Program-made: the position numbers and the translations under genes
In this document: piece after piece, positions 31,664 to 37,488 of the stretch
Position numbering within the stretch: the stretch's first letter is position 1
Layout of the letters: each line of letters starts with the position of its first letter
Notes under the pieces: model-generated
What the model saw: only the letters and a program-made list of their open reading frames with translations
Database searches by the model: none
What the model was told of the DNA's origin: nothing
NCBI GenBank assembly: GCA_030595125.1
Contig: JAUVDV010000032.1
Span: forward strand, 1 to 53,391
Reading direction: 5' to 3'
Source of the DNA: Deltaproteobacteria bacterium
GTDB lineage: Bacteria > Myxococcota_A > Polyangia > JAAYKL01
DNA: 53,391 bases

Positions 31664-31762
31664 GACCTGGATTCTAGAGCCCTTCGCGCGAGCAGGTCAA
31701 TTATCGTTGTGAACACTTTGTTCATTGTGGTACGTGACGATTACGTTCTTTTTCATTTTTTT

Positions 31763-31928
31763 CGCTGCATGGACAAGGGCGAAATACCTTCGCCCTGGGA
31801 AGCCGGTTGGAAACCGGCGCGGCCCCCGCCACTGTATCCGGGGACGAAAGCGGCACTGCCACTAGATCGAAAGATCCGGGAAGGCGTCGCAAGTAGGTCG
31901 ATCCGGGAGCCAGGAGACCTGTTCAGCG
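31763..31928 (+). ncRNA. cobalamin (B12) riboswitch
   Basis: The RNA shows the conserved features of the cobalamin riboswitch class. A closing stem pairs CGCTG (31763-31767) with CAGCG (31924-31928). Inside are GGGAAGCCGG with its partner CCGGC (31797-31819), the GCCACTGT box (31828-31835) and the CACTGCCACT box (31854-31863), GGGAAGG (31878-31884), and GAGCCAGGAGACCTG (31907-31921). The aptamer is followed by about 150 bases of leader before the ATG at 32082. The 418-base gap holds no other gene. This class normally represses B12 uptake or synthesis genes when cobalamin is plentiful; here the only downstream gene is a lipoprotein. Confidence 0.93.
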
Positions 31929-32081
31929 GCACCTCTAGTCTACGGGGTGTAAGACTTCACGGTTCCCTGACACGCGGTCTATTCGAAGCGTGTTCGAAGC
32001 TTGCCTCCGGACGTGGGGAGAATCGCTCATCGCCCGGGTCGGGGCGAGAGCTTATTCAAGGGGAGCCAAGAGGTAAGAGTC

Positions 32082-32690
32082 ATGAAAAAGTCAATTATTG
32101 GGATGCTGGTCATCATGGGGGTTCTCGTGCTGCCGTGCGCGTGCTCGGACGATGACGACACGGACGCAGGGATCGACGGCGGGGCAACCGACACGGACAC
32201 TGACACCGACACTGATACCGACACAGACACTGATACCGACACCGATACCGACACTGATACCGACACCGACACTGACACTGACACCGATACCGACACGGAT
32301 GCCGATGCCGGAGCTCTTGCAATCATCGGGAGCTATACGGAGAGCTGGGGCGCCACTCACGAGATCACCGCCGCCAGCTGGACGACGGTTTTTCCGCCGT
32401 ACGAAGACGCGGGGCCCACGACCAGCAAGTGCCATATCGAGGTATACGACAACGCAATAGGGTACCTGACGGCCCAGAACGACAGCGTGGACAGCTACCA
32501 CCCGGACCTGTGGTCCCGGTACGACTGGGTCCATGACAGCCAGGCGGACGGCGGGGTGGGCCTCTATTACTGCCAGGTGGAGTACGCAGCCGCTGACGAG
32601 GCCACGGCCGCCGCCAATACGTCGGCGGACCACGGTGATATTTCGGGAGGTTGCAACGGTTTTTCCTGGGCGCAGCTGATCTCAGACTAG
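32082..32690 (+). CDS. TD-linker lipoprotein under B12 riboswitch control
   Basis: This 202-residue lipoprotein has the signal MKKSIIGMLVIMGVLVLPCAC with a plausible lipobox ending in C, an Asp-rich patch, then 19 consecutive Thr-Asp pairs (residues 36-73) acting as a negatively charged spacer. The C-terminal domain (about 78-202) is compact, with GSYTESWGATHEITAASW near its start, three cysteines (SKCHIEV, YYCQVEY, GGCNGFSW) and many aromatics. I recognise no family. AGAGG lies upstream of the ATG. Control by a cobalamin riboswitch and display on a long spacer suggest a surface corrinoid-capture protein or an uptake accessory; this is inference. Its end overlaps the convergent gene by nine bases. 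Confidence 0.88.
   Translation: MKKSIIGMLVIMGVLVLPCACSDDDDTDAGIDGGATDTDTDTDTDTDTDTDTDTDTDTDTDTDTDTDTDTDTDADAGALAIIGSYTESWGATHEITAASWTTVFPPYEDAGPTTSKCHIEVYDNAIGYLTAQNDSVDSYHPDLWSRYDWVHDSQADGGVGLYYCQVEYAAADEATAAANTSADHGDISGGCNGFSWAQLISD
32187..32300 (+). repeat. Thr-Asp dipeptide repeat tract
   Basis: A 114-base hexanucleotide repeat (ACNGAY units) encodes 19 Thr-Asp pairs inside the riboswitch-controlled lipoprotein. Codons alternate irregularly between synonyms (ACC/ACT/ACA, GAC/GAT), which lowers slippage compared with a perfect repeat. Confidence 0.95.
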
Positions 32691-32945
32691 CTTCTCGAGG
32701 ATTTCCCGATGGCTTTTGTCCAGGTTGTGCAGCCTGACAGATATTGCAAAGGCGCCGTCGCTAAGACGCTTCAGCTTGACGATCTTGCCGTGGAACGTCC
32801 TGACGCCTGCATTGTCATCAGAAAACTCGAATCGCACCCGGGAGCCCGGGGGTAAACCCGCCGGGCAGGAAAGCACGGCCATGCCGTCGTGGTAGTCGAT
32901 GAGCATCTTTGTTTCGAGATGGCGCTCGGTGATGTTACTACTCAT
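32682..32945 (-). CDS. PilZ-like small protein
   Basis: This 87-residue protein begins ERHLETKMLIDYHDG and has a beta-rich core with PPGSRVRFEFSD and FHGKIVKLKRLSDGAFAISVRL, a pattern like the beta barrel of PilZ domains. The RxxxR and DxSxxG motifs that bind cyclic di-GMP are not evident, so it would be a degenerate or non-binding PilZ at best. Its ATG overlaps the smpB stop (ATGA), and its 3' end overlaps the convergent lipoprotein by nine bases. Confidence 0.65.
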   Translation of the reverse strand: MSSNITERHLETKMLIDYHDGMAVLSCPAGLPPGSRVRFEFSDDNAGVRTFHGKIVKLKRLSDGAFAISVRLHNLDKSHREILEKLV

Positions 32946-35430: not shown

Positions 35431-36450
35431 TCAGTCGAGGGGTTTTGCCGACACAGCCTGTACCCGGACTTCGAACGAATCGTCATAGTCGGCGGGCACC
35501 TCGTCGAAGATGAGCTGGAACACGGTATTGCCGCCGCCTTCAACGGAGCAGTTATAAAGTGCTCCGCCACTACGATAGTGCCCGTTCATCGCACCCTTCG
35601 GAGTTGCCTCGATGACCGAGTCGTCTATGAGTTTTCCGCACGGGGCTCTCACCTGAGCGCGTATGTCGCCGATCGTATCAATCAGCTGTGCGCGCATGAT
35701 TATTTTGGAACGCCTGGCCATGGCGATGTTGGTCACCTCCCCCTGGACCACCAGAAAGGGAGTTTTCTCCCTGTTCGTGATTATCTTGCGTCGATTGATT
35801 GTGGCCTCGATATCCCGCGCCTCCTTTGGAAGATCCTCGAGCTTCTCTCCGGAGAATGCGAAGGCTATCTGGTCGCCGAGATCCGGAATCGAGATGGCCC
35901 AACTGTTTCGGTAAGCCACGAACAACAGGAATCCGATCAGGAGTACGACAACAACGAAAATCACCTTGCCGGTTGCCTGACCCCTGGGGGGGATCTCGTT
36001 CGTGATGGTGAATCCGCCGAGATCAAGAGGAGCTTCCATCTCCCATGCGGAGGCTGTTCCACCGTAGATCTCCGGAGCGGATGGCGACGTCGGAGGCGCG
36101 GATGGCGACGTCGGAGGCGCGGGTTGTGCCGGCATGGGTGTCGGGGGAGTGGGTTGTACGAGTTGTGGCGAAGGTTCCTCGGGTTGTGCCGGGGGTTCCT
36201 CGGGTTGTGCCGGAGGCTCCTCGGGTTGTGCCGGGGGGTCTTTTGCCGGTGACTCCTTCAGAAATGCAAACTCGCCGGGAAGATGATGCTGGCCGGTGAA
36301 CTCCTCATATCCAGAAGGCGCTGCCTCGGCGCGCCTGGCGATGGTAAACAAATTCTTACATCGCGAGCATCGCATCTTCCGGGGCTTCTCGCCGATCATG
36401 TTCTCGGGAATACTGTATCCGGTGGAGCATTGAGGGCATTTGATGATCAT
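35431..36450 (-). CDS. zinc-ribbon membrane protein (MJ0042/DUF3426 type)
   Basis: This 339-residue protein begins with a zinc ribbon (C5-x2-C8 and C29-x2-C32, in KCPQCSTGYSIP and RCSRCKNLFTI). A Pro/Gln/Glu linker follows with three tandem AQPEEPP repeats (about 80-100), then a membrane helix (about 175-193, VIFVVVVLLIGFLLFVAY) and a C-terminal beta domain of DUF3426 type (about 235-335) with LVVQGEVTNIAMARRSKIIM. Proteins of this layout are common in deltaproteobacteria; their role is not known. It lies divergent from the EF-hand-like repeat gene. Confidence 0.85.
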   Translation of the reverse strand: MIIKCPQCSTGYSIPENMIGEKPRKMRCSRCKNLFTIARRAEAAPSGYEEFTGQHHLPGEFAFLKESPAKDPPAQPEEPPAQPEEPPAQPEEPSPQLVQPTPPTPMPAQPAPPTSPSAPPTSPSAPEIYGGTASAWEMEAPLDLGGFTITNEIPPRGQATGKVIFVVVVLLIGFLLFVAYRNSWAISIPDLGDQIAFAFSGEKLEDLPKEARDIEATINRRKIITNREKTPFLVVQGEVTNIAMARRSKIIMRAQLIDTIGDIRAQVRAPCGKLIDDSVIEATPKGAMNGHYRSGGALYNCSVEGGGNTVFQLIFDEVPADYDDSFEVRVQAVSAKPLD

Positions 36451-36473
36451 GTTCGAATATTCTCTTTCGTGTT

Positions 36474-36512
36474 AACCCCATCCCGGCCTTCCCCTACAAG
36501 GGGAAGGGGAAG
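36474..36512 (+). repeat. GC-rich palindromic dispersed repeat, copy 1
   Basis: AACCCCATCCCGGCCTTCCCC is followed by a short loop and AGGGGAAGGGGAAG, so CTTCCCCT/AGGGGAAG forms a strong hairpin. Copy 2 lies at 41087-41124 in the opposite orientation and differs only in the loop. It sits in the divergent gap between 36450 and 36637. Confidence 0.85.
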
Positions 36513-36636
36513 TTGTTGGAAACCGACTTTAACCCGTTCCAAAGAACAGGTCCGCTCAATTGTGATTCATTTCCATTTTGCCCTCGATAAACAAAGAGGA
36601 CAAGGCCGATCGGGTTTGTGTGATAGATTAAAAAAC

Positions 36637-37488
36637 ATGCGTAGTCCTATCTTACCGGTCGCCCTTGTCACGACGATACTGGGAGCACTCGCGGGTATTT
36701 CGATTACACTTGTCGTCGTGTCTGACGAGGAGAAATCGCCCGACGGTTGGCAAGAGAGTGATTCAAACGCCGATGGCGTTGTAGACGAATGGATCAACTT
36801 CAAGGACGGGGTTTTTCTCAAGTGGGAGAGAGATCATAATTTCGATGGCCTTCGGGATGACTGGAGCGAGTTCGAGGGCGGCGTTCCGGTGCTTTCGAAG
36901 AAAGATACTAACTTCGATGGCAAGACGGACGAATGGGTCCGGTTCGACGAGATGGGCCTGGCGAACGAGATCAAGAACGACCTGAATTTCGACGGCAAGG
37001 TCGACGAGTGGACCATCTTCGTCATGGGAGTGCAGGTAGGCTCCAGGAGCGACAAGAACTTTGATCAAAATGTGGATGAATGGGTCAAGTACGGCAAATA
37101 CGGATACAGAAACAGGATCGATAACGATAGCAATTTCGACACAAAGATTGACGAGTGGATATATTGTGGAGAGTTCGGCCAGACGGAGAGAATAGAGAGC
37201 GATCTGAATTTCGACGGTTCGGTGGACGCATGGGAATTCTTCGAACTCGGTCACTTCACTAACGGCAAATACGATCTCGATTATGACGGCCGGCCGGATT
37301 CGTGGTCGTTTGGCAAGTTCGGTCAGGTGGTGGAGCAACACTGGTCGCTGGACGGGAGCGCAAAGCCGAACAAGAAGACATTCTATAATCACGGGGTGAA
37401 AATCAGGGAGGAATTCGATATTGACCAGGACGGTGTGTTCGAAGTGATAAAGAAATTCGACAAGCTCGAGAGGGAAATCGATTCATGA
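36637..37488 (+). CDS. EF-hand/dockerin-like repeat protein
   Basis: This 283-residue protein has an N-terminal signal or anchor (ILPVALVTTILGALAGISITLVVV), then about eight tandem repeats of 24-25 residues with consensus DxNFDGKxDEWxxFxxG (for example DTNFDGKTDEWVRF, DLNFDGKVDEWTIF, DSNFDTKIDEWIY). The D-x-N-x-D-G-x-x-D-E spacing is that of EF-hand or dockerin calcium loops, each followed by a Trp-containing strand, so a calcium-stabilised periplasmic or surface rod is likely. Two repeats have lost the Gly. ATG 36637 follows an A-rich stretch without a clear ribosome site. Its stop overlaps the HMG-CoA reductase start (ATGA). Confidence 0.85.
   Translation: MRSPILPVALVTTILGALAGISITLVVVSDEEKSPDGWQESDSNADGVVDEWINFKDGVFLKWERDHNFDGLRDDWSEFEGGVPVLSKKDTNFDGKTDEWVRFDEMGLANEIKNDLNFDGKVDEWTIFVMGVQVGSRSDKNFDQNVDEWVKYGKYGYRNRIDNDSNFDTKIDEWIYCGEFGQTERIESDLNFDGSVDAWEFFELGHFTNGKYDLDYDGRPDSWSFGKFGQVVEQHWSLDGSAKPNKKTFYNHGVKIREEFDIDQDGVFEVIKKFDKLEREIDS

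Follow-up and report, generated by a model that had tools for sequence, protein, structure and literature searches.

A cobalamin riboswitch-linked lipoprotein of Myxococcota, a probable accessory of corrinoid uptake with a predicted calycin-like barrel

Why would a cobalamin riboswitch stand before a single gene for a small lipoprotein? The question is raised by a contig assigned to a Deltaproteobacteria bacterium (GTDB Myxococcota_A, Polyangia; assembly GCA_030595125.1, contig JAUVDV010000032.1), of which the whole analysed stretch of 53,391 nt is referred to here as the window. The answer favoured here, with a probability of roughly 85%, is that the product is an accessory outer-membrane lipoprotein of a corrinoid uptake system, made when B12 is scarce. 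The features of the locus are as follows.

31750-31940, plus strand: cobalamin riboswitch aptamer (RF00174; 90.5 bits, E 3.6e-21, model positions 1-189 of 189)
31941-32081, plus strand: leader from the aptamer to the start codon, the probable expression platform
32082-32690, plus strand: lipoprotein gene, 202 aa, ATG start, the single open reading frame (ORF) after the switch
32082-32144, plus strand: lipoprotein signal, aa 1-21, LPCAC, by direct reading of the sequence
32187-32300, plus strand: low-complexity linker of 19 Thr-Asp pairs, aa 36-73
32313-32687, plus strand: C-terminal domain, aa 78-202, modelled as an eight-stranded calycin-like barrel

The original prediction of a B12 aptamer at this position was borne out by a covariance-model scan, in which RF00174 matched over its full length at a score far above the gathering score of 31.5 bits. 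This is the sole Rfam match in the window and one of two RF00174 matches in the whole genome, the other lying at C198:63064-63246 on the minus strand. Repression by cobalamin is the established behaviour of this riboswitch class. The leader offers a possible route for such repression, with an anti-SD CTTGCCTC (32000-32007) that pairs with GAGGTAAG (32070-32077) across the ribosome-binding site in both the MFE and the centroid structure. Sequestration of the ribosome-binding site by this pairing is just suggestive, since the leader fold barely beats shuffled sequences (z -1.15) and is not exceptional. In a sister species (G246), the leader is almost the same as that of the window.

Translation was taken to start at the ATG at 32082, which has a Shine-Dalgarno-like AAGAGG immediately 5' of it; a longer ORF from the TTG at 32001 is a mechanical extension and was set aside. 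Because the next gene (32682-32945) runs in the opposite direction, the riboswitch would control one gene, and that gene is predicted to encode a lipoprotein, both as had been proposed. The signal region is hydrophobic and contains Cys19 and Cys21, and its lipobox, read by eye, is non-canonical at -3; the sister species homologue has LPCGC in place of LPCAC. The protein is presumably located at the cell surface. Its 20 TD pairs include 19 that form the run at aa 36-73, and the C-terminal domain carries three cysteines (Cys117, Cys164 and Cys191), in agreement with the first description of the protein. Weak or low-complexity matches of the lipoprotein to Pfam and NCBIfam models (MSCRAMM, TrAA12) were rejected as compositional, falling mostly on the Asp-rich linker. 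Elsewhere in the window, an ORF at 36283-37488 on the plus strand encodes an Asp-rich repeat protein with many NFDGKVDEW-type repeats.

Evidence that the pairing of switch and lipoprotein is not peculiar to this contig came from a survey of the phylum. The original prediction had raised the question of how often homologues lie beside cobalamin riboswitches; a same-strand RF00174 match was found upstream of 75 of the 107 scored domain genes, phylum-wide, at a median distance of 333 bp and within 1 kb in 74 cases. The chance expectation within 1 kb is about 0.02 cases, by arithmetic that takes a 6 Mb genome to hold about two switches. The 75 linked genes are spread over 75 genomes, and their switches make up 75 of the 172 cobalamin riboswitches of those carrier genomes. 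No riboswitch was detected for the other 32 domain genes, several of which are located at contig ends. In a separate genome collection, RF00174 was also found at five loci (L132, L158, L177, L124 and L126), while the AdoCbl-type switch RF01482 was found upstream of the domain gene at L138 (53 bits, above threshold) and, just under threshold (47.9), at the SAR324-labelled L148; a TonB receptor gene and a BtuH-like gene come after the domain gene there. No riboswitch was found for the cyanobacterial members of the family. An AdoCbl-II-like match in Halobacteriovorax (L174:4427-4781) was left uncounted, being below threshold and separated from the lipoprotein gene by a small HTH-like ORF. In one genome (G248), two cobalamin riboswitches lie back to back, one on each strand (L109:6147-6649).

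The domain that these switches precede is a unit of about 110 residues. Of 284 genomes sampled from the phylum, 98 carry it, in one to several tandem copies, often two to three per protein. Cys164 and Cys191 are invariant in all 60 aligned domains, Gly190 and Trp196 are invariant positions of the family too, and Cys117 occurs in two of the 60; the first strand carries a G-x-W/Y motif, with Gly in 59 of 60 and Trp or Tyr in 58 of 60. When the genome collection was scanned with a 19-sequence subset of this 60-sequence alignment, the named carriers included Plesiocystis pacifica, Enhygromyxa salina and Paraliomyxa miuraensis, and carriers outside Myxococcota included cyanobacteria such as Moorena bouillonii and one SAR324-labelled genome. 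The viral contigs and plasmids searched yielded no relative of the domain. A Myxococcota-type contig with a domain gene (L130, CALQBK020000289.1) is filed under a Bifidobacterium breve MAG label, probably a binning error. Neither Pfam nor the PDB sequences yielded a match to the C-terminal domain, and the freely accessible papers that were searched hold no description of it.

Although the lipoprotein was originally described as being of unknown fold, its domain can now be modelled with confidence (pLDDT 93.9), as eight strands and a short helix. The best structural matches to the model were avidins and lipocalin-like proteins, with Z at most 8.7 and sequence identities of 3-14% to calycins in the structural alignments; Foldseek returned no match below E 0.001. 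The predicted domain resembles calycin-type barrels in general, a likeness that is not a claim of superfamily membership. Calycin-type barrels are among the matches listed for the domain and BtuH is absent from them, an absence that by itself excludes nothing.

Additional evidence for a connection to B12 came from the gene that most commonly neighbours the domain or is fused to it, which encodes a lipoprotein of the LIC_13355 type. Among 107 distinct loci, cyanobacteria included, eight encode the domain and this partner as one fused protein, 39 have the partner gene adjacent and nine have it nearby; the remaining 51, the locus of the sister species among them, have no BtuH-like gene within the fetched flank. 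Scores against the LIC_13355 family model (NF033170, cut-off 120 bits) reach 185 bits at L037, 150 bits at L065 and 126.6 bits for the fused protein at L064. Copies of the LIC_13355 type lie at L037:3277-4383 and L065:4952-5800, both on the minus strand. In the window genome the partner is encoded at L112:2996-4003 on the minus strand, on a contig other than that of the window lipoprotein. The predicted structure of this copy (pLDDT 95.3) has as its best PDB match 8blw_B, region 392-660 of BtuG1 (Z 12.8, 163 residues aligned, rmsd 3.3), followed by 7biz_B, BtuH2 (Z 12.7, 158 residues aligned, rmsd 3.4), with the next row at Z 11.6. The C-terminal extension of BtuG1 is itself a BtuH domain, homologous to BtuH2 (PMC10404256), and 7BIZ is the structure of BtuH2 with B12 (PMC8941943). 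As modelled, the partner folds like the B12-binding domain of BtuH. In sequence searches, 7biz was the only PDB match to the partner profile (E 0.036). An ENxF motif of the partner, with Asn in 39 of 39 sequences and Phe in 38 of 39, aligns to N-A-F of BtuH2. This tripeptide fits Asn399 and Phe401, which are B12 contacts in BtuH2, with the numbering deduced from the length of the construct, a chain of 501 residues made up of 103-593 and a tag.

The second RF00174 match in the window genome, on C198, leads an operon for a TonB receptor, a propeller-like lipoprotein and a BtuH-like lipoprotein. Divergent from it is a PF01497 (BtuF-type) gene, and after that gene come ORFs whose sequences suggest a permease and an ABC ATPase, the apparent btuC and btuD. 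Against the B12 receptor model, the TonB receptor of this operon reaches 1e-28, far under the cut-off, and a siderophore-receptor model fits it better; its assignment rests on context. TonB receptors at domain loci likewise score well under the curated BtuB cut-off, several fitting siderophore-receptor models better. The label "propeller-like" is a reading of the sequence together with operon position, and the genes so labelled have no match to a BtuG family in Pfam, NCBIfam or PDB sequences. The window genome (G000) has 11 B12-binding domains above cut-off and no GATase_3 (CobQ/CbiA) above cut-off, an absence that at 95% completeness is not proof. These counts fit dependence on import and suggest that the organism is a B12 user that relies on uptake.

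Taken together, these data favour a B12 uptake component that has gone undescribed as the most likely identity of the lipoprotein, because the pair of switch and lipoprotein recurs phylum-wide and is often found beside BtuH-like proteins. Following established riboswitch behaviour, high intracellular cobalamin would fold the aptamer and turn the gene off, possibly via sequestration of the ribosome-binding site, and the lipoprotein would be synthesised when B12 is scarce. The lipid anchor would sit in the outer membrane, the acidic Thr-Asp linker would let the barrel extend outward, and the barrel may capture a corrinoid or help to hand it over to the BtuH-like lipoprotein and a TonB receptor. 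Capture and hand-over of corrinoids had been among the roles first proposed, and the original interpretation is in part supported. The genomic context speaks well for such a role, through the riboswitch linkage, the BtuH-like partner and the TonB receptors in some operons, and a function of some kind in B12 acquisition is highly probable; binding is a prediction, and the chances that the window domain contacts a corrinoid directly are evenly balanced.

Doubt about binding arises from Bacteroides thetaiotaomicron, in which cobalamin binding was detected for neither BtuK2 nor BtuL, both of them lipoproteins of riboswitch operons; BtuL promotes the release of vesicles. Riboswitch control is thus not proof of binding, and because two such lipoproteins bind no cobalamin, a non-binding helper stays a serious rival to a binding protein within the uptake role. 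The lipoprotein, co-regulated with uptake, would then serve B12 acquisition by acting as a structural adaptor, by opening a lid or by releasing vesicles, and the binding site could come from the BtuH-like partner. However, small-ligand binding is common among the barrels that the domain resembles, its frequent two- to three-fold repetition would suit a capture domain, and it is fused to a BtuH-like domain in eight loci; such a helper is judged to have appreciably less than an even chance, while remaining a substantial one.

Two further alternatives would place the lipoprotein outside B12 uptake. Cobalamin riboswitches in other bacteria control B12-independent isozymes, and under B12 shortage the lipoprotein might likewise replace a B12-dependent function, as had been suggested, or bypass it. 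This is now disfavoured as highly improbable, since Pfam and NCBIfam searches found no enzyme or catalytic family match and the product appears to be a small exported beta-barrel with transport and BtuH-like genes as neighbours. The other alternative is a surface protein with a general part in adhesion or host interaction, and with an incidental link to the riboswitch. Recombinant LIC_13355 of Leptospira binds laminin and other host components and was proposed to be a matrix adhesin (PMC11891782), and induction in a host-adaptation model is reported for both LIC13354 and LIC13355 (PMC3953431). Interpretation of the binding data is tempered by the use of a refolded recombinant protein in a study whose text does not mention cobalamin (PMC11891782), and an incidental link is hard to square with 75 riboswitch-linked genes in 75 genomes or with the predicted BtuH fold of the LIC_13355 type. 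An adhesin is therefore considered improbable.

If the lipoprotein is an accessory of corrinoid uptake, it would carry lipoprotein-assisted B12 capture from gut Bacteroides to a mostly environmental phylum, by way of a different fold, and it would give two unassigned NCBIfam families a testable function. A more ambitious proposal is that the domain founds a new corrinoid-binding calycin-like family paired with a BtuH-like lipoprotein in Myxococcota, SAR324-type bacteria, cyanobacteria and Leptospira, where LIC_13355 and LIC13354 would be a B12 scavenging pair. This falls a little short of an even chance. For LIC_13355 of Leptospira, published as a matrix adhesin, the structure predicted for its type suggests a BtuH fold.

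How far, then, does the lipoprotein depart from systems already described? The original prediction knew of no described protein of its type, which needs qualifying in that LIC13354 is named in NCBIfam, with no function attached, and that B12 lipoproteins exist in Bacteroides; it is half right. The LIC13354 model (NF047669) matches the same places as the domain in 52 genomes (best E 3.5e-12, 48.8 bits), reaches its curated cut-off of 130 bits in none of 284 genomes and has no match in the window genome, the window protein included. Because all its matches lie below the cut-off, the domain family is regarded as a distant relative of LIC13354 and not as a member. Like the window domain's family, LIC13354 goes with an LIC_13355-type gene, as the consecutive gene numbers in Leptospira indicate. 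In contrast to the riboswitch-preceded window lipoprotein, cobalamin riboswitches in Leptospira have been reported only before btuB and cob/cbt genes (PMC3493377).

The eight predicted strands of the window domain and the G-x-W/Y of strand 1 would suit the calycins (avidins, lipocalins and nitrophorins), at modest similarity scores, and to our knowledge no calycin has been described as a B12 binder. The nearest functional parallels are the riboswitch-controlled B12 lipoproteins of Bacteroides, namely BtuG, BtuH, BtuJ and BtuK. BtuH of B. thetaiotaomicron (7BIZ) is a lipoprotein under a cobalamin riboswitch, as is predicted for the window gene product, but it has Ig-like PKD domains where the window protein has a Thr-Asp linker, and the fold predicted for the window domain is different. 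BtuJ (DUF4465) and BtuK are accessory lipoproteins of cobalamin-uptake operons, the kind proposed here; the DUF4465 fold is an augmented jelly-roll, unlike the predicted barrel, and the Pfam search gave no DUF4465 match. The window lipoprotein would thus be similar in kind to BtuG, BtuH, BtuJ and BtuK, and differs from them in its predicted fold, in the tandem repeats of its family and in its spread outside Bacteroidota.
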